Below are positions 771 to 56,895 of a stretch of DNA of 64,000 nucleotides, in pieces. Below the pieces are notes generated by a model. That model was not told where the DNA came from and did not search any database. It worked only from the letters and a program-made list of their open reading frames with translations. This DNA comes from Apostichopus japonicus (lineage: Eukaryota; Echinodermata; Holothuroidea; Aspidochirotida; Stichopodidae): the NCBI RefSeq assembly GCF_037975245.1, contig NC_092579.1, positions 13,128,678 to 13,192,677 of the forward strand, given 5' to 3'. Position numbers and translations under genes: made by a program. Every line of letters starts with the position of its first letter. The first letter of the stretch is position 1.

Positions 771-831
771 ATCATGCTGAAAAGAAGAGAAACTCACCGC
801 ACCGAAGGAAAACCTGATTTAACGCTAATCA

Positions 832-846
832 TGGCGCTTTTATAGC
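832..846 (+). promoter_or_regulatory. uORF1 of the ATF4-like mRNA (Met-Ala-Leu-Leu-stop)
   Basis: ATG GCG CTT TTA TAG in a strong initiation context (A at -3, G at +4). It lies in the leader exon that ends at 911, with 60 nt between its stop and the uORF2 start. In vertebrate ATF4 a 3-codon uORF1 allows ribosomes to resume scanning and reinitiate. The position, size and context here match that role. The 5' end of the transcript is not visible, so its inclusion in the mRNA is inferred. Confidence 0.75.
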
Positions 847-906
847 AAAACGGCAACCCAACTCTGTGCAATTCCAACGCGGATTGTGCCCGGCAACATA
901 TTAACC

Positions 907-2207
907 ATGGCGTAAGTTTTTTGGGGGAATAATTTTATCCTAAACTTCATTGAGGAAGTGAGGTTGTTAGCGTATGACTAACTACGCAATACGCCTAATG
1001 TTAAATATTAGTTCGTTAGGCTATTTAGGTCACGGTTTTCAAACATATGTTCGAAATTGAATTACAATTTACTAATAAATAGTTGGATTGTTTGACAAAA
1101 TTACTCATTTTATTAATCACAAGTTATTTCTCCCTTTGTAACGAATGTGAACGAGTGTTTGGTCTAGGCATATTCGAAAAAATAAATCCCTGATTTTCTC
1201 AAGTTTTGGGAAGTGTGATCTGTTATGGAACTTTGATGGATACACGTACGTAATGTTCAACAGCATATTGTATTGGGCACGACATGGCATACAAAACCTA
1301 GGAATTAATGAATAAGGGTAAAGCTGGGACATGTCATGAGTGGTACAACAGTTCTAGACTTAGGCCTAGGCCTAGTTTCATCAAAATTAGTGCATCCAGG
1401 ATAGTAAAACAATTCACACAATGTTAAAATTGCATCACAAATGCAATAATATAGCCTAGGCATCAGCACCTTGGAAAAATGTAATCTATCCTATAGTCTA
1501 GAAAACAGAAGATTCCTGCAAAAAATCATGCATAGATGGACATCAAATGCCCTTCAAAACTTCATAAGTTTGACACTCTTTATGAAATGATACCCATGTC
1601 ATGTGAATGCAAATGAATACCCTCCTATTGAATAACTATGTCACAAGCCTCACCACATCAGCAGGTACATACTTTATGATTTGTATGCAAATAATTGAGA
1701 AGTGAAACTCCTGGAGTTGCAGGTACTTGGCTCCAAAATGTGCAAACCTAGTTACTGTCATGATTACCATACCAATGTATGTTTTGCTCATAGCCATGTT
1801 TGTACCAACATGCTAAGTAGGGAAGCATATGTTTGTCCTGTGCAAGCTGATGGATGTTCTGTGCTGGCTTTTCAGTTGTTGCACCACATTCTTACCAAGA
1901 GTTAGCCATGGATGTTAGTTGAAACTATGATGGTTATTGGTCTATTGAGTTGCATTTTGCAAAACATGTTTTCAAATATAAACTTACAGTATGTTAAAAT
2001 GTTACTCCTTTCTATTCCTTCAGGACCTACAAATCCCAATACACTCGGCTTGCCTTAGCAGCATATGATTTCGTGGAACCATCATCAAAACCAGTTGATT
2101 TATTTGAAGAGTCTTTAGATGAGTTACAACAGCAACATGATGACTTCAATGGAGACCATCACATTTCCGTCGTCCCTCGTAGGGGACGACCTCTCAATTT
2201 GGTCTAA
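907..2207 (+). promoter_or_regulatory. uORF2 of the ATF4-like mRNA, spliced and overlapping the main ORF
   Basis: Begins at ATG 907 (A at -3, G at +4). The exon ends at 911, before a GTAAGT donor, and resumes at 2024 after the acceptor TTCCTTCAG. Spliced, it encodes 62 aa, starting MATYKSQYTRLALAAYDF and ending at TAA 2205-2207. It is out of frame with the bZIP ORF and overlaps it by 89 nt if ATF4 starts at 2119, or 68 nt if at 2140. Human ATF4 uORF2 has about 59 codons and overlaps the main ORF by about 83 nt. It is expected to block ATF4 translation except when eIF2-GTP is limiting. Confidence 0.8.
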
Positions 2208-3583
2208 TGACCTCCTCCCTAAGAATGAATTCCAGGATGGAGCCTCCCTGGATACTACCATCCAGCTTATGGATGCCCTGGTCGCCTGCAAGCAGGACCA
2301 AAAATCCTCATATCTCACTGCAGGTTTGTGTTTAAGTTTGAAGTTATATTCTTGTTGACAATCACAGGAACCACCCTATGGGTCCTTTCCTGACATTTGT
2401 ATCTACCTAGATAGGCTTCTTTCTTTTAAGTAAACTTGGCAGAAGAAAAGATGACATAATTGGGGGGGGGGGGGTGAGTGAGGGGGATATGAAAGTGTTG
2501 TCTATATTGGTTTTTCACAAAAGGTTGTGGACTAAGTTCTGTGTTTGGGGCTTAGTGTGTCACTTTGTGTCTACTTCACATCCTGTATTAAATTATTTGA
2601 CAAATTTGGCAGGTGTTGTGGGGTAGGGGAGAGTGGCTCTGGCTTATGTGGGATTGAAATTTGATGGGTACCTTTGGAACAGTTATTTCAATCTCAGCAT
2701 TGTGATTCAACAGAGTTGCATAATGGTCCGAATTTAATAAGATAACAATATTCTGGTTTTGTTTGTGTCTTCAGGTGATCAGAATGACCCACTCCCTGAC
2801 TGGATGTCAGAGAAAGTAGATGTCAGTAATTGGCTGGATGTTTTCGCAGGTAATTCTGCAAACCAAATGAATGAACTTGAAATGGACAGAATGTCACCTG
2901 CCAATGAACTTCTAAATACCTTTGAGGCGGATGAATCCAACATGTCAGATTTCTTCCTCCCGAAGACTTGCCTCGACGAAGAGCCATTCATGGCGTCTTC
3001 TCCGGGAAGTTCTATCGGAAGTGGGGGTTCTGGAGTTAACAGCAGTGTCTCCACCATGCCATCCAGCCCATATTCCATGGGAAGTGAGACCTCGGAAGGC
3101 GATTCCCTTCGGGAAACGGATCTCGGTACAGAAGACCCTGTAAGTCTGGAGTTACTCCTCAACACTTGCAAAGACGCCGACGTTTTCTTGCAACTCGCAG
3201 ACGTGCTTCCCATGGATCTGCCCTTGCCAGCAGAAGGAGACCTCAAAATGTTAGAGGAGACTGCAAACCAGATGCAGAGTGACCTTCAAAGAAAAGAAAA
3301 ATCAGCGTCGAAAGTCGGCAGAGGCAAGTCCAAGTCGAAAGGGGTAACGAAGGAGAGGAGAGAGAGGAAGAAAGGCCAAAACAAGGAAGCAGCGACAAGG
3401 TACAGGCAGAAGAAGAAGAAGGAAAGTGATTGTCTGTCCTCTGAGATGGAAGTCCTAGAGAAGGCCAATGGGGAACTTAAAGGCAAAGTCAGCTCCCTTG
3501 AACAAGAAATTCACTATCTGAAGGACCTCTTACAAGAGATCTGTAAGGTCAAAGGTCAAATTCAAATCCTCCAGTCACCGTAA
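2119..3583 (+). CDS. ATF4: ATF4-like bZIP transcription factor
   Basis: Two coding exons, 2119-2323 and 2775-3583, join in phase (G|GT) to give 337 aa; human ATF4 has 351. The N-terminus MTSMETITFPSSLVGDDL resembles the vertebrate ATF4 start, and a DW-M-EK motif follows in exon 2. The C-terminus is a bZIP: basic region NKEAATRYRQKKK near residues 271-283, then a leucine zipper ending in EIHYLKDLLQEI. This factor binds C/EBP-ATF composite sites and drives stress and amino-acid response genes in the nucleus. ATG codons at 2119, 2137, 2140 and 2149 share the frame. Those at 2137 and 2140 have A at -3, and alignment to vertebrate ATF4 favours 2140. The middle is Ser/Glu/Asp-rich, but I do not see a canonical DSGxxS beta-TrCP degron. 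The two leader uORFs imply translational control. Confidence 0.93.
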
Positions 3584-4926: not shown

Positions 4927-5230
4927 CACACAAAGAAACAATACACACACAGAAACAATACACACAAAGAAACAATACACACAAAGAAACAATACACACA
5001 AAGAAACAATACACACAAAGAAACAATACACACAGAGAAACAATACACACAGAGAAACAATACACACAGAGAAACAATACACACAGAGAAACAATACACA
5101 CAGAAATAATACACACAAAGAAACAATACACACAAAGAAACAATACACACAAAGAAACAATACACACAGAGAAACAATACACACAGAAATAATACACACA
5201 AAGAAACAATACACACAAAGAAATAATACA
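4927..5230. repeat. 17-bp minisatellite, about 18 copies
   Basis: Tandem units of ACACACAAAGAAACAAT with one common variant (AAAG to AGAG) and two 15-bp units ending AGAAATAAT. The 17-bp period cycles through all frames and the units contain no stops, so long false ORFs (Thr/His/Gln/Asn-rich on +, Cys/Val/Leu-rich on -) run across it in several frames. It lies in the 3' flank or extended UTR of the ATF4-like gene. Confidence 0.95.
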
Positions 5231-6056: not shown

Positions 6057-6421
6057 CAGTGGCGTAGGAAGGTACTTTTGAGTGGGGGGGCTGAAGACTG
6101 ATGGCCGGCCTGGGGGAGGGGTCTAAGGGGAGGGGGTGTCCCCCTCCCCTTTGGAATTTTTTTGCATTTCCAGGTGGCCTCAGATGCAATTTGGTGCAAT
6201 ATAGCACACTTCAACACCCACTCCATTTTGTAAAGAATTTTGCATTTTCACCTGGCCTTAGATGCAATTTGGTGCTTCAAATGAGATTTTTTTCTCATTT
6301 GGAAATGAAAAAGGGGTTTTCTGACTTGCGGAGCGGGGGGGCGGAACGATACTTCCGCCCCCCCCATATTTTTCACTGGGGGGCTGGCGCCCCCCCAGCC
6401 CCCCCGGTCCCTACGCCCTTG
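6057..6421 (+). mobile_element. hAT-type MITE with 8-bp target duplication
   Basis: A 365-bp non-coding element with imperfect terminal inverted repeats (CAGTGGCGTAGGAAGG at the left, CCCTACGCCCTTG at the right). It is flanked by exact 8-bp duplications TACACAAC at 6049-6056 and 6422-6429. An 8-bp duplication plus a CAGTGGCG-type terminus points to hAT transposase mobilisation. The body has long G and C runs and CAGATGCAATTTGGTGC blocks repeated internally. A near-identical copy is at 25128-25493. Confidence 0.9.
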
Positions 6422-10256: not shown

Positions 10257-10730
10257 CTAGTAGTTTTCATGCTGTTGGTGGCCATACATTACCACTGGGT
10301 TTACAAGTGACGTCACTTTACTGCTTACGTCAAACTCGGTGTCAAAATTATTATAATAATCAGCAAGGTTTACTTTAACACCGTATCGACAACGGATAGC
10401 GAACATTTCGCAGCCGTAAAATTGGACGTTGTACCAGTCGATTCCGATCTGATCTTCAGCCGTCGATACGATTTCGTTCGGATCCAGAGGAGGATAATTC
10501 ATAACTAAATGTTTGTCGTTGTTAATTCGAACTAGTTTATTTCCCGCCACAACGCTAAGGTGTTCTTTCTTTGTCCACGGATGACGCACGTGTATGACGT
10601 AACCGGTTCCGATATAAACTGCCCAATGATTGAACGTGGAGTCTGGGTACTTTATTTCCAACAAATCCCCGACGTTACATTTCGTAAGAATCCGATCAAA
10701 TGTGGTATATTTATTCGTAGTATTACCCAT
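10257..10730 (-). CDS. LRAT/PLAAT-like NlpC-P60 superfamily protein, intronless
   Basis: 157 aa from ATG 10730-10728 (MGNTTNKYTTFDRILTK) to the stop at 10257. The LRAT domain is clear: VGDLLEIKYPDSTFNHWAVYIGTGYVIHV carries the two conserved histidines (His35, His47), and YGCEMFA carries the nucleophilic cysteine (Cys107). In PLAAT/H-rev107 proteins the last motif is NCEHF; here Asn is Gly and His-Phe is Met-Phe. Family members are thiol-dependent phospholipid acyltransferases/phospholipases, or use retinol (LRAT). The C-terminus lacks the hydrophobic anchor of vertebrate PLAATs, so the protein may be soluble. The lack of introns in transposon-rich DNA fits a retrocopy or an intron-poor family. 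A CRE palindrome lies 64 bp upstream of the ATG. The exact substrate cannot be told from sequence. Confidence 0.8.
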   Translation of the reverse strand: MGNTTNKYTTFDRILTKCNVGDLLEIKYPDSTFNHWAVYIGTGYVIHVRHPWTKKEHLSVVAGNKLVRINNDKHLVMNYPPLDPNEIVSTAEDQIGIDWYNVQFYGCEMFAIRCRYGVKVNLADYYNNFDTEFDVSSKVTSLVNPVVMYGHQQHENY

Positions 10731-10793
10731 TGTGTCGGATACCAAATGAATGATCAATTCACAAACTATAGTTACGGTATACCTTCACATCAA

Positions 10794-21862: not shown

Positions 21863-34377
<12,515 letters not shown>

Positions 34378-49700: not shown

Positions 49701-52700
49701 AAGTAAATCAACCACAGAAAACTGATCGGGAAAGTAGATGATCAGTTGAAAAGAACAACTAAAGTATTGGATAATACAGGATTCCAACCAGTCATATAAG
49801 GATTTACAAGTTCTGGACTCTACCAACTGACCTATCCATTCCCTTGGTTGGTGGTGATTCTCAAGACTTGACCACCAACTCCATGACTATAGCTCTACTT
49901 GCATTAGTTTAAACTATAGAATTTCCCTACAATATAAACACTTAGTTTACTCTGATGGACCATTGGCAAATTTGGTTAAACGGTTTCTAGAGATTACAAC
50001 AGAAGACATGTAATAAACATGTGTTTTAGTAGTAATAACTTATTGAAAGGTTACTGTTCTAGCAATTGTGGACCACACATACATTTCCAAGCCAGGACTT
50101 GTGACAGGTTCATCAATAGGTATGCATTGTAAAGAGGAGCAAATATATTTAACCGGGTGCAAATATATTTAAGTAAGGACATATCATATTTAAGGTGGCA
50201 CAAAATATACTGCTCATGACAACTTTGTGTATTATAGCCAAGGAACATTTTGGGTTGGGAGAAAGGGGTAGCTGGTTGGCAGAGGGGGGCACCAGATCTA
50301 ATGAGGGAACCAGCTCTGATGGGGTATCCAAAGACTTACCATCTTTGTTCTCTTCTAAATATTTCTGTGAGAGGTGAGCTGAACTTATCAATATTGCTTT
50401 AGTTATGTACAAGTGTTGCTCATGTGAGGTGTGTTTGAGGGCACTGCCATCTGACCAGGCATCGAGAAGATTAAAAAGTACCTACGAGAAACAATTAAGA
50501 AGCATGTTCAGAGAATCAATGGTAAAAAAGAATTAAAAAAACAAAAAACAATGGAAGATCAGTAATTGGGTTAAGAACCATGAGCATTACAAAGAGGCCA
50601 TAGGACATCCCATTGGGCATTTTTGTAGATGATTGTAGAGGAAATTGCTTTTTACATAAAAGCTTGGCTATAATACCCACCCCAGTCCCACCCCCTCTGA
50701 ACATTTTAAGACAAACCTTTATGCACATTGCTAAACCTTCCTACTGAATGACTATTTGTTTGTTGAATTGAATGATTTAGAAAACTGATTGGTAAATTAA
50801 TAACAGGAGAAAAATTTGAGGTCAATCATTAGAGTTATTCATCGTTTTTGGAGGGCAGATAAGAGTAGTTTCAGTTTTATCTCCTAGGCAACCTAACTCA
50901 CAGCCATTTAAAAAAAAAGAAGGTTCTTTTACTTTAGATGGAAGGGTGTGGGAGGGGATGGTGGGAGAGTGTGGGAGGGAGGGGGGTAGACTATTTTGCT
51001 CCCTTCTCTCCAGCTGTAAATCTTTTTGTAACTTTCCTTGTTATTTGTAAATTAAATACCTTGATTATCTTTGAAATGAGTAAAAGAAATACACAAATAT
51101 GTAATGAGAATCCTCAAGTTCAGCAATTGGTACAGTAATTATTTCACTGTGTTGCTATGGTAACCAAAATAATATGCATTGCCAATGCCAGCCTGCTATG
51201 TCTTCTGTGGTCTAAGCAGCACCCATGGTCTATTACATTCACACCTCCCACCCCCTCCTCCCCAATCCCCTCCTCTTTCCTAGTCTGGTTCCTTCCCTCC
51301 CTTCAGATGTCATGCTGAAATTATCCTACCTTCGGTAAAAGACAAGCACGACTTGGAGAATCTCCCAGGTAACCAATCACATTCTGTAGGACCAGATCGT
51401 TCTCAGTGTGTCGCAGTAGAAGGAATTTACTGGTCAGCAGATACTTTACTTTCTGGTTGTTTAACACAGCATCTCCAAGAAGCTTGGACATGTGACCATA
51501 CCTGGACGAAGAAGAATAATCCACTAGAAAATATCAGTGTAATATGATGACAATATAATCACAGTATCAGATATTTGTTTCACACCGTATCCATACTTCT
51601 AGGGTCAGTTACAATTTATGTTCCTTGTGCTTACGTGTGACATTGTTCTAGGACATATCAATACATGTTTCGGGGAATTTATCAAATTTATCAATATCGC
51701 TGCTGAAATCTGAAGTATGTAATGGAGAGGATTTACTTGTCATTGTTCGCTTTCATTTCACATTCTCACTTCATCTATTCTGCATAAATAAACATCGCAG
51801 ATACCAAATGAATAACTTTTTTTTACCTAGCTTGTAGGCTGTTATGTATTTCGGATCAACGTACAAACATTTTCAATAAACTAATATCAGGGACACCTAT
51901 CAATCATTTTCCATGGGGTGGGGTGTTGTGAAGGCTGATGAACTTTTACACTAGATAAAATGATGACAAAGAAACACATATTACTGAATTGAACATACCA
52001 TGGAACTTTCTTCAGCAGACAGTCCAGAATGATTTCTAAGCTTCTTTCAGGAGCCCCGACGATGATACGGACCGAGATACGACTCCAGACATAGTTGTTA
52101 GAAGAAAACTTCAATAGATGAGGCAATAAGTTATCAAATAAGACTTCTGTGAATATAAGATAAAGAAAATCTCACATGGAACTGATGCCATGGTAAGCAA
52201 ATAAGTTTCTCAACAAAAGTGTATACACTGCATGGAAAATCAAAATGGCGAGTCTCACAAAGTGGATGTCAAGGTATCTATTCTTCTACAGTACATCCTT
52301 AAGTTTACCCTTGCTCCCAAAACTGTCTTTCTCTCCCTTGAATTTTTAAGTTTTTCAAATAACCTTCAAACTTTGCCCTCCCTTGTCTCCAACCCCTACC
52401 CCTTCTCCATCAACCCATCTCAGGGTCTTTTGTTTGCACCACTACTGCCGATGCTAAACGCATGTTGTAACTTCCAAATAGCAAACTTCAGCTTAGCAAC
52501 TCACCTGAGTAACCACTCACACAAATCTTTCCAATCAACTGGCTGACAAACACCAAGGAGCAGTCTTTTGATTCTAAGATAACAGAAAGAAAAATAGTGA
52601 CAACAGAGTAACATTGAAGCACAAATCACAACAAGATTCCAATACAGTGACACTAATAAAGCATAAACCTTAAAGCACAGCTTGGTGTAAGAAACAAACG

Positions 52701-54642
52701 TTCTTGCATTTTTTTCTCAACTGTTTAGCCTGTACTTTTCAGGAGTACATTTAGCTTTCCACTGTCACATGTCCTGTACATGAATAAGAAGACAGTCGCC
52801 ATTATAATGCAACTTAAATATTTTGCCTAGAAGCCTCTGAATCTAGAATTATTGTAGTAGAGCATTGAAGCATACCTTGGATTGTCATGTGAACAAGCTG
52901 CAGGGTCTTCAAGATATCTTGTGCAAGAAGTTTAAAGTACTGCTTTGGCAAAAATATGTCCCTATCAAATGTGTAATAAAGAAGAAGAAGAGAAAAACTT
53001 TATAAAATGTTGCATAATGACAAAATATCTTTCTCTAACAAAAATTAAGTACACTTATTAGTTAAATCTGAGAGCTGGGGATGGACTAGGATGGGGGAGG
53101 GAGGTGGCAAGAAAGAAGAGCAAATGTAATGCCTGACTTGCCTGTGGCTCTGATAACACCACGAGAGAAGGACAGGGATTTAATAGTCAAGTCAAAATTG
53201 CCTGAAGTGACCAATAGACAGGAGACAGATGAAATCATGCATTTAAATTTGAACCCCTCTTCTGTGCTTTGACCTTTACCAAACAAATTATGCAACTTTT
53301 ACTCACTATGGGGCATCCTTATATTAAGTATGAGATATGCAATCCATGTAAATTTGTCTTCTCGAGATGACATGTTAAAAAGCAACACCACTGGCTATAA
53401 CCACTCATGTAACAACAGCACCTGTACACACATGTCACAGTGGTAGAATAGGCCATGAATGTCATCAAGGTCAAAAATTGCTAGTGACTCTCAGCACTAA
53501 AGCCAACAGGCTTCTACATTTAGCAAGTGCTGAAAAGAGAACCCTTAGTATTAACTTACCAGTTGTCCACCTTTAACATGTTAGCCATTTTATCTGGTAA
53601 ACTTGTCAACAAGCTGATCGATTGATCCCAGGTTACTCTGGTCCTTTCCTTCATGGCTTTTCTTGTGGATGCTTCTTCCTCTGCTCCTTGATTGACCAAA
53701 CAATGATGCCAAAATAATCCAACTAGTCTGTGAGATTGCAAGAATTCAGCAAGAAGAGAAAGGCACTTGTTCCTTTTGAAGCTGGGGCTGAAATAAGGAA
53801 ATGTGTTTTGTTTCACATCCGTCATCCAAACACTGACAACATATAGTATGCTGAAAGGAGAGGTGCACTTTTGTTCTTGAAAATGTGACAAGTACTGTTA
53901 ATATACTCTTACGTCCTGGCTGGTTTTCCTTTTCAGAAAACTAAGGTAAGAGACGTAAAAGCTGGTCTCCCCTAACCCTCTTTCCCAAATCGACCTTCAC
54001 TGTAAAATCAACTTCACTCCTCTACATCTCAATATCATATTGGTACAAAAATGACAGAAAAAGCACTGATTTATTATTATGGCCTATGACTTGAGTGTTA
54101 ATTGAAATTGTCAGGTCATACTATATTATATATGATAAAAGCAAAAACCTTTCCTTTCATGGACAAAGCACTGTATAGTAAAAAACAAAGAAAGTGATAA
54201 AGATACATAGATATTAATTTGCATACCTGCTATTAAAAATTGATGAACAGAGGACAACCATTGCATCTTCTGGAGGTGCCGCGAGAAATACCTCATTGAA
54301 ACACTCCTCTCCATGTTTTTCACGTCCAAACTTTCCGAACCAGTCAAGGCCAAGTTGATTGATAAGATGTTCTGCAAGTTGCACATAATGCATCCTCACA
54401 AATTCTCTCTGGATTACCTTCCATTGAACAAGAGTTCTGCTTCCAGGAAATTTTTCTTGAAGCAAAGCAACCTGATCATCAGTAAAAGTGGACGGCTCCG
54501 TTGTTGGTAGTAACAGCGTAATCAGTTTGAAGATTTGAACGGCTTGGGAAGCATCTTGAGAATTTGACAGATCATGTCTACAAGTAATCACCAATGACTG
54601 GAGATGAGCTCTCTCTTCGGTACTCCAGTTTATCCCAGCCAT
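40785..54642 (-). CDS. TELO2: Telomere length regulation protein TEL2 homolog
   Basis: Nineteen phase-consistent exons: 54642-54227, 53787-53560, 52961-52876, 52573-52505, 52146-51999, 51501-51330, 50481-50340, 49399-49183, 48435-48331, 47434-47346, 46763-46672, 46270-46154, 44957-44886, 44090-43917, 43684-43596, 43015-42916, 42683-42619, 42060-41945, 40912-40785. They total about 874 aa; human TELO2 has 837. It is an alpha-helical repeat protein. Diagnostic blocks include LETPISRLRTMGMVVAE, EPYDMSGD, YVRDCME, SSAAQELSRP, VAGHFFFPL and LGRLVHTL. With TTI1 and TTI2 it forms the TTT complex, which uses R2TP-HSP90 to stabilise PIKK kinases (mTOR, ATM, ATR, DNA-PKcs, SMG1). DSDDDL at 527-532 matches the CK2-site motif bound by PIH1D1. 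The last exon is read through a GTAAAT to a TAA at 40785; a further spliced exon is possible. Confidence 0.93.
43825..43862. repeat. ATT microsatellite in a TELO2 intron
   Basis: ATTATTATT-type run broken by ACTTTT and ending TATAA. It may be the tail of an eroded LINE or SINE, but no body is recognisable beside it. Confidence 0.6.
45728..46118. mobile_element. hAT-type MITE in a TELO2 intron
   Basis: A 391-bp element with terminal repeats CAGTGGTGTCACCAA and TTGGCGACGCCACTG. Exact 8-bp target duplications CATCCTAG are at 45720-45727 and 46119-46126. It is internally G/C-run rich, with a CTTAGATGCAAT block like the 6057 family but different ends, so it is a related subfamily. It sits 35 bp from the donor site of the exon ending at 46154. 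Confidence 0.9.
46975..47270 (+). pseudogene. LINE (CR1/L2-like) ORF2 C-terminus and 3' tail remnant
   Basis: The translation contains GYDTTRMKYKSLGNGRFYYAG, SPLWNELPASIRSIESLSL and FKSKLKTHFF. This is the signature C-terminal segment of reverse transcriptases of CR1/L2/Rex-like non-LTR retrotransposons. After the stop, TTGTAAAGTGCATTATAATG and a TATTATTATTA tail follow, as in intact elements. Only the last 65-70 codons remain, so it is 5'-truncated, as is common for LINEs. It lies antisense in a TELO2 intron. Confidence 0.8.
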
Positions 54643-56895
54643 CTGTCTATATTGTTATTAAAGAACAGAATGTTTCCAGTGCTTAAAGAACAGAATTTTA
54701 CCTGAACCTGCAAACATTTGTTAAGTATTAGGTAACCCTCCTCCTGATTTTATGTGCAAACTTCTTCTTGCCTTCTGAAATGGGCTGCTTGTATGATTTC
54801 ACCTGTAAGACCCAAAGAACGATACTATTCAAGAGCAGAAATCTAACACAGGCTAGCCACGAATTGAAAGTAGTCCTATAGGCCTAAGCTCTCTAACGGT
54901 CATATACAAAACGAGAGATTTTGCTGGCGCATGATCTGTTGGGCGGGGCTTGCAAATTTGATTAAATTTTGTAGAATCTACAGATTCGTTAATAAATCTG
55001 GGGAATTTTATTCAGCTCAAAATGTTTAACGACAGATAATTCAATAAAAATAATGAATATGAAAATTGCATACAGAACGATGTTAATAACTGTTATTTTC
55101 ACTGAGCTTTTAGTTTTAGGGCAGTAAGCTTGAAAGGTAAAAGTGAAAATTTGGCAAACACATATTGAGACTTTAAACAAAAACATTCCAGTACTAATAG
55201 TAATATCAGGAACAGACTATGCAACTAAATTTTACTAGTAATATTACTGGCTCATCGGAATATACATACAAAGTGGCTATTCTTACGACCATTCGTAAGA
55301 ATAATTTCCGAATATGCACGCATGCGCAGTTGCTATTTTTATGACAGGCGTACTATTTTTACAACCAGGAGTAACAATAATTTATTGGTTAGGGTTAGTC
55401 TTAGGGTTAGGATTGGGGTTTAGGGTTAAAGTTAGGGTTACCCCTACTACATGTGCAGTTGCTTTATTTACTTTACTGCGCTTGAATTCGCCTTTGTCGT
55501 AAGAATAGTTTATAATTTATTATTACGACTAGTCGTAAGAATAGCCACGGCCATATACATAACTATTGCCTAGGCTATGCCAATGGCTAATGTTGTGCCC
55601 AGGCTTAGCTCAGTTAGGCCTATCATTTCTGCGAAATTATGATAGGTTTAATTGTCTCAAGTTTCATACTCAATTGCGCAAAAGAAAACAATCTATTGCA
55701 AGTTATTTACCAGTATCCGATCACTTTTCATAAGCTACAATATGATCACACCTTCAAATCCATCGATTTATGTGGAAAAGAAATCCACGATGTATTAGGT
55801 TGGATTGCTTTATCCTTGGTTATGTTTTACCGTCTTGAAGCTATCTCAAGATTCATTCATAGATTCAACTCTCTATTTGTTGGTCGGCCCAACATTAGCA
55901 AGGTACCACTGTGGCTGGAGTTGCATAGTATCTGGTGAGTACTAGGATCCTGAATATCTAAAACACACTTGCCAAGGTAAATAGTCTCCATGATCTCTGA
56001 CACGTGAAATTCAACGAAAAGTCGCAATTTGTTCATTCATAATTAGTCTCAGTCCCAGGTACCCAAGTACTGGTGGTAGACTGTTTTACGTAGCCTAACA
56101 CAACAAGTAACAGTTACGCTATACTTTCGTGGCCCCTAGTCGATACGTTTATTTAGACAAGACAGTAACTTAAGTTTATGAAAGCACGAGACAATAAATC
56201 GGAGACATCCCAATGTTCCCCCGCCCGATGGTATAGGAGGTTAGGCCTACTAGCGATGTGAAGCGGGATAAGGTGGGGCAGAAGAGAAGGGGAGAGAGCA
56301 TGGATGTACGACCATCAGTACTTACTCTATGACCATTGATTTGCACTTTGTTACAATCCTTATATGACTACCAAGATTGCTTGATCAGATCTAATCCTCA
56401 GGTTATTTATCTCTGAATTGTACATGCAACCATGCAATTTATGGTGAGATCTCCAATCAGTTCTGTAATTAGCTGAAAGGTGATAAGACAGTATTTAAGA
56501 AACCTTGACTGGGAGTTTCATCACTGAACTGTCGTCGATACGGACACAAATAGCTCATGATCATAAAATTAGATACAGTGCCTCTGCAAAATAGGAGTTG
56601 AACCATAGTTCTTGATGTGAGTTATAGTTTTTATTTACAAAACACTAGTTACTAGCATGGACCTCATGAAAGTAACTTAAAGCAGATCTTGGTCTGTAGT
56701 GTAAATTTTACAAGCACATTAAAGGAGAATGTGTTTTTCCCCAGACTATCATATAAAACAGTTACAACTCAATCACAAATTTCACTTTCTTCTCACTTTT
56801 CTTTTTTATCCTAGGTCTAAAAGTGGCATTCTTTTGGAAAAACACTACCCTGCCCATGCTCTGAGAGGGTTTTCCTTATCACACTTGAAGGTGGA
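54643..56895. other. Divergent promoter region between TELO2 and METTL22
   Basis: Separates the TELO2 start (54642, minus) from the METTL22 start (56896, plus). It holds the telomere-repeat element at 55273-55548 and an open frame at 55639-55934 that ends at a good donor (CTG|GTGAGT). A CCTAG acceptor at 56810-56814 precedes the METTL22 start, so an upstream 5' UTR exon is likely. TSS positions are not visible. Confidence 0.5.
55273..55548. mobile_element. MITE-like element with telomere-like TTAGGG repeats
   Basis: Perfect 17-bp inverted ends GTGGCTATTCTTACGAC (55273-55289 and 55532-55548), each followed by a small palindrome built on TCTTACGA and TCGTAAGA. The interior at about 55385-55440 contains several TTAGGG/TTAGG units in degenerate order. 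ATATACAT occurs on both sides (55260-55267 and 55553-55560), a few bases from the ends, and may be a target duplication. Confidence 0.65.

Follow-up and report, generated by a model that had tools for sequence, protein, structure and literature searches.

The closest described systems are the leaders of ATF4 mRNAs. The known ATF4 leader carries uORFs of 3 and 59 codons (PMC6321046) and an overlap of 83 nt (PMC5666893), and an ATF4 cloning primer in print carries an ATGAC..AATG start (PMC8060268). Paired ATF4 uORFs are reported in the surveyed metazoa, including insects, Aplysia and Hydra but not nematodes, and a third short uORF that overlaps uORF2 is frequent in the listed non-arthropod animals (excerpts of PMC4176352). 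According to the same source, ATF4 mRNAs that keep the arrangement also have an extra uORF in poor context 5' of uORF1, which is bypassed or avoided via a later transcription start. In Drosophila S2 cells, mutation of uORF1 lowers and mutation of uORF2 raises reporter expression (PMC4433282). At the middle of the human ATF4 overlap lies a hairpin, SL3 (-15.4 kcal/mol), for which high conservation across vertebrates is described; a near-cognate CUG precedes it by 20 nt, and the region of ribosome queuing spans about 150 nt counted from the AUG of uORF2. Codon 17 lies in its loop and A326 in its stem, and breaking the stem raises expression about 1.3-1.8-fold (PMC11058473). The words 'invertebrate' and 'Drosophila' are absent from the main text of that paper.

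The window, which is the whole stretch of 64,000 nucleotides of Apostichopus japonicus DNA analysed, carries at its left end on the + strand a gene of three putative exons, whose features are collected in Table 1. A profile search finds a bZIP domain in the exon-3 protein (Pfam bZIP_1, PF00170, 3.7e-14), and this domain is of the ATF4 type: the top PDB match of the protein is 1ci6_A, 'transcription factor ATF-4' (1.7e-11), a chain that we take to be human, and 32 of the 59 aligned bZIP positions are identical to it. The genome (671.6 Mb in 35 contigs, the window being on C19) was searched for bZIP domains and gave at least 13 hits; 8 of 13 were compared as loci, each on both strands. The locus in the window, L003, has a self-score of 322 and a score of 160 against ATF-4, and the other seven loci scored at most 77 against L003 and at most 67 against ATF-4. 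Judged by its sequence, the gene is ATF4, and it appears to be the sole ATF4/5-type gene among the eight bZIP loci compared, a result with which an invertebrate origin is consistent. No relatives of the exon-3 protein were confirmed among 47 pattern matches in genome_contigs and 15 in viral_contigs, which are non-animal collections and uninformative on conservation. A search of the entire window against Rfam at gathering thresholds returned no matches.

Table 1. Coordinates of the ATF4 gene, its putative exons and the elements of its leader (positions in the window)
Feature	Position	Strand	Remarks
Exon 1	up to 911	+	predicted
Possible longer uORF1, 23 codons, same stop as uORF1	774..845	+	if transcripts start upstream of 774
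uORF1, MALL*, 4 codons	831..845	+	A at -3, G at +4
uORF2, first 5 nt, ATG GC	907..911	+	A at -3, G at +4
Leader intron, splitting uORF2 within its second codon	912..2023	+	predicted from splice signals
Exon 2	2024-2323	+	predicted
uORF2, remainder (62 codons in total)	2024..2207	+	overlaps ATF4 start out of frame
Third uORF, nested, 17 codons	2065..2118	+	weak context
ATF4 coding part of exon 2	2137..2323	+	starts 2137/2140 (MMTSM); further in-frame AUG 2149
Predicted 9-bp hairpin, CGTA loop, SL3-like	2169..2190	+	in uORF2/ATF4 overlap; from folding
Intron 2	2324..2774	+	splice signals and reading frame
Exon 3, coding part, including bZIP domain	2775..3583	+	coding stop at 3583

We put at roughly 0.8 the probability that the gene encodes an ATF4-type bZIP factor whose leader works as a switch by delayed reinitiation. 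In this model, ribosomes would translate the short uORF1, remain on the mRNA and scan onward. When ternary complex is plentiful, they would reinitiate 61 nt further on at uORF2, cross the ATF4 AUG in another frame and stop translating at 2207, whereas with eIF2 phosphorylated many would still be uncharged when they scan over the AUG of uORF2 and would get as far as those of ATF4 at 2137, 2140 or 2149, about 180 nt after uORF1, which would amount to induction under stress. The hairpin at 2169-2190 may in addition slow ribosomes, both scanning and elongating ones, like SL3 in human ATF4.

In the genomic sequence, a short uORF1 stands upstream of uORF2 and both have good start contexts; in the mRNA, this arrangement would depend on the transcription start. 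The earlier note had read an A at -3 and a G at +4 at both uORF starts, and these bases are indeed present at 831 and 907. It was also right on the four codons of uORF1, which it had placed one base too far downstream (832-846), and it had counted 60 nt to uORF2, where 61 nt (846-906) separate the two. The join of 911 to 2024 opens a 62-codon uORF2 that closes at 2207 in a frame other than that of the bZIP coding sequence, just as the note had described, and with 912/2023 as the splice, the mature mRNA would have uORF2 running over the main AUG in that other frame. Translation of ATF4 most likely starts at 2140, or at the adjoining AUG 2137, because the ATGAC..AATG at 2140 matches the start in the printed ATF4 cloning primer, which is presumably human. 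A start at 2119 was considered and rejected, as it has a weak context (T at -3) and the ATF4-like ATGAC..AATG lies at 2140. The overlap between uORF2 and ATF4 amounts to 71 nt from 2137 or 68 nt from 2140, and in the spliced mRNA 2137 is 179 nt from the uORF1 stop and 118 nt from the uORF2 AUG. A Pfam search with the uORF2 peptide returned no families.

To estimate how often this layout arises by chance, the leader was dinucleotide-shuffled 20,000 times at each of two lengths (775-911 plus exon 2, and 600-911 plus exon 2). The bare layout, defined as a first uORF no longer than 7 codons and, 30 nt or more beyond it, a second uORF that is overlapping and out of frame, arose in 6,137 shuffles of the shorter leader (31%) and 9,317 of the longer (47%), and since it is so frequent it constitutes weak evidence. 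Strong context at both starts, which was chosen post hoc with the layout already seen, brought the counts to 75 and 139 of 20,000, respectively. The chief support for the layout is its location on an ATF4 gene, where such a layout is expected.

Four stretches of the leader and overlap were folded. Stretches 831-911 and 2024-2136 are unremarkable, being equalled by 182 and 49 of 200 shuffles, respectively. Within the overlap, a stable hairpin is predicted at 2169-2190, with an energy of -14.9 kcal/mol by itself and -16.0 kcal/mol when the flanks are included, and its pairs have probabilities of 0.84-1.0 in partition functions calculated for four assumed mRNA starts. The hairpin lies 150 nt past the uORF2 AUG, and its first stem base is 20 nt past the A of AUG 2149, which is in the ATF4 frame. 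No in-frame CTG equivalent to the near-cognate CUG 20 nt upstream of SL3 is present in 2119-2168, AUG 2149 standing there instead, and a near-cognate ATC is found at 2158.

The chances are about even that the hairpin is incidental to the coding sequence and without function. Local comparisons speak against this: among 1,161 overlapping windows of thirty bases along the spliced mRNA (831-3583), the hairpin is the strongest structure, its placement resembles that of SL3, and its strength is reached by none of 2,000 and 4 of 4,000 synonymous-codon permutations and by 7 of 3,000 dinucleotide-shuffled overlaps. Broader comparisons point the other way, given that longer overlap stretches folded as a whole are unremarkable (24/200 and 12/200 shuffles equal, z -1.25 and -1.58) and that 8 of 1,500 randomly placed 71-base segments of the window contain a hairpin as strong. 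In a perfect-stem scan of the + strand, whose cut-off the hairpin narrowly misses, 9 distinct stronger stems (19 rows) were found elsewhere, mostly in G-rich repeats. The hairpin is also known from one species, and base pairs identical to those of SL3, with AUG codon 17 in the loop, are absent from it.

More tentatively, and with the odds somewhat against it, the ribosome-queuing hairpin of ATF4 might be no vertebrate invention, its strength and its spacings of 150 nt (five ribosome widths) and 20 nt being the same here, as are the Val-Gly-Asp codons, while the arms built around these differ. Val-Gly-Asp is presumably present in human ATF4, and we assume that the human SL3 stem uses the same Gly-Asp codons. 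If this were true, selection would preserve where the brake lies and how stable it is, not its sequence. A hairpin at the same spacing in other invertebrate ATF4 genes would make queuing an ancient component of the integrated stress response, and the overlap hairpin could in this way turn a vertebrate observation into a comparative test. A single species cannot separate a conserved brake from a coincidence, and no invertebrate ATF4 overlap hairpin is described among the literature matches listed, which come from a partial library.

Upstream of the short uORF1, an AUG at 774 is in frame with 831, shares its stop and has an A at -3. It is unlikely, on balance, that uORF1 actually comprises the 23 codons from 774, in which case leaky scanning and partial reinitiation would replace the clean short-uORF1 switch. 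A TATAAA at 698 would, by the TATA spacing rule, put the transcription start near 725-730, upstream of 774; however, AUG 774 is without a G at +4, and the context of AUG 831 is stronger. Still weaker AUGs occur further upstream, at 681 and 604. A poor-context uORF before uORF1 is compatible with the switch in the ATF4 mRNAs that keep the arrangement, and the 23-codon frame would exceed the usual reinitiation limit, a uORF of 20 amino acids (excerpts of PMC4176352). The last two sense codons of uORF1 are CTT TTA, which are not among the GCG or CTG codons at uORF ends that have been linked to DENR dependence (excerpts of PMC7494916).

The leader intron that completes uORF2 is predicted from its splice signals. 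Its acceptor at 2023 is excellent, with 3 of the 3,798 AGs in the window, itself included, scoring at least as high. Donors were scored by a frequency matrix, in which donor 912 is 5th of 78 GTs in 700-2023, behind 958, 1665, 1723 and 1318; 238 of the 3,661 GTs in the window score at least equally, and its score of 1.49 is close to the 1.53 of the intron-2 donor at 2324. By U1 pairing, donor 912 is 3rd of 74 in 846-2000, behind 1665 and 1723, and it is the sole GTAAGT there. Donor 912 is therefore plausible as the leader-intron donor, though not top-scoring. Exon 2 is open in the uORF2 frame from 2025 past the start codons, and retention of the intron would reduce uORF2 to MA* and add 42 ATGs to the leader. 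That the main exon-1 donor is another one, such as 958, with which AUG 907 would read MA* and most mRNAs would lack uORF2 and carry only MALL*, MA* and the nested 17-codon uORF, is improbable, for although 958 leads in the frequency matrix (3.32 vs 1.49), 912 is ahead in U1 pairing (-6.4 vs -5.1), matches the intron-2 donor in score and yields an overlapping uORF2 close in length to the 59 codons of the known one. Acceptors for an additional 5' exon are weak candidates, the best in 60-906 scoring 3.75 and ranking about 84 of 3,798 in the window. Overall, the leader appears to be a real ATF4 switch of the ordinary kind, its coordinates now amended, for which we infer the transcription start and the donor from the DNA.

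Several features were observed in the neighbouring sequence. Upstream of the ATF4 gene, TGATGCAAT at 392-400 resembles what we take to be a C/EBP-ATF composite site, and it adjoins a TGACGT at 373-378, presumably a half site; TGATGCAAT occurs 4 times in the window against 1.23 expected, and 4 of 100 shuffles reach 4. Just 3' of the gene lies a tandem array (4927-5230) with a 17-base unit in about 18 copies. A dispersed G-rich repeat at 6125-6404 and 25196-25477 forms very stable predicted hairpins, up to -27 kcal/mol, and similar G-rich DNA was seen by eye from L009 9740-10000 into the window from position 1, abutting the 5' side of the ATF4 locus. Also by eye, coiled-coil-like open frames were seen on the + strand of L009 at 2162 and 4547, which perhaps belong to a neighbouring gene upstream on the same strand. 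On the - strand, 10257-10784 is a stop-to-stop open frame of 175 residues with an LRAT domain (1.2e-18), and the open frames 50149-50481, 53556-53897 and 54214-54654 have sub-threshold matches to the TELO2, EDRF1 and neurochondrin families and are perhaps exons of one or more genes.

Compared with known systems, the locus shares with the mammalian ATF4 leader a short uORF1, a long out-of-frame uORF2 over the ATF4 start and the ATGAC..AATG start itself. The dimensions differ, with 4 and 62 codons here and 3 and 59 in mammals, and an overlap of 68-71 nt against 83 nt, so that the 'exact geometry' of vertebrate ATF4 claimed in the earlier note was too strong. Human ATF4 also has a start-stop element (excerpts of PMC11058473), whereas no ATG directly followed by a stop is present in 300-911. 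The predicted hairpin resembles SL3 in its position at the middle of the overlap, in its energy of about -15 to -16 kcal/mol, in its distance of about 150 nt from the AUG of uORF2 and in having an ATF4-frame start codon 20 nt upstream, the way of counting these 20 nt being unstated in the excerpts of PMC11058473. It departs from SL3 in that an AUG replaces the near-cognate CUG and in that the loop is without an AUG. GGGGAC forms the 3' arm here, whereas the human hairpin has A326 (codon 15 by our count) within its stem and codon 17, an AUG, in its loop. The loop here, at +39 to +42 from 2140, is by our count about 7-12 nt nearer AUG1 than in human.

Paired uORFs are likewise common to invertebrate ATF4 leaders (Tribolium, Drosophila crc, Aplysia and Hydra), in which AUGs upstream of uORF1 also occur, and the nested third uORF at 2065-2118 resembles the third short uORF of non-arthropod ATF4 leaders (excerpts of PMC4176352). 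The overlap in Drosophila, at 125 nt (excerpts of PMC4433282), contrasts with the 68-71 nt found here. In the main texts of PMC4176352 and PMC4433282 the word 'intron' occurs 0 times, and an intron splitting uORF2 in an invertebrate ATF4 was not found in their excerpts. The proposal of an ATF4-like paired-uORF leader in an invertebrate finds good support in the identity of the gene, its arrangement and its start contexts, but comes as no surprise, having already been reported across metazoa (excerpts of PMC4176352). The two-uORF switch is known across animals, in flies, molluscs and mammals, and what this locus would add is an annotated example with a spliced uORF2.
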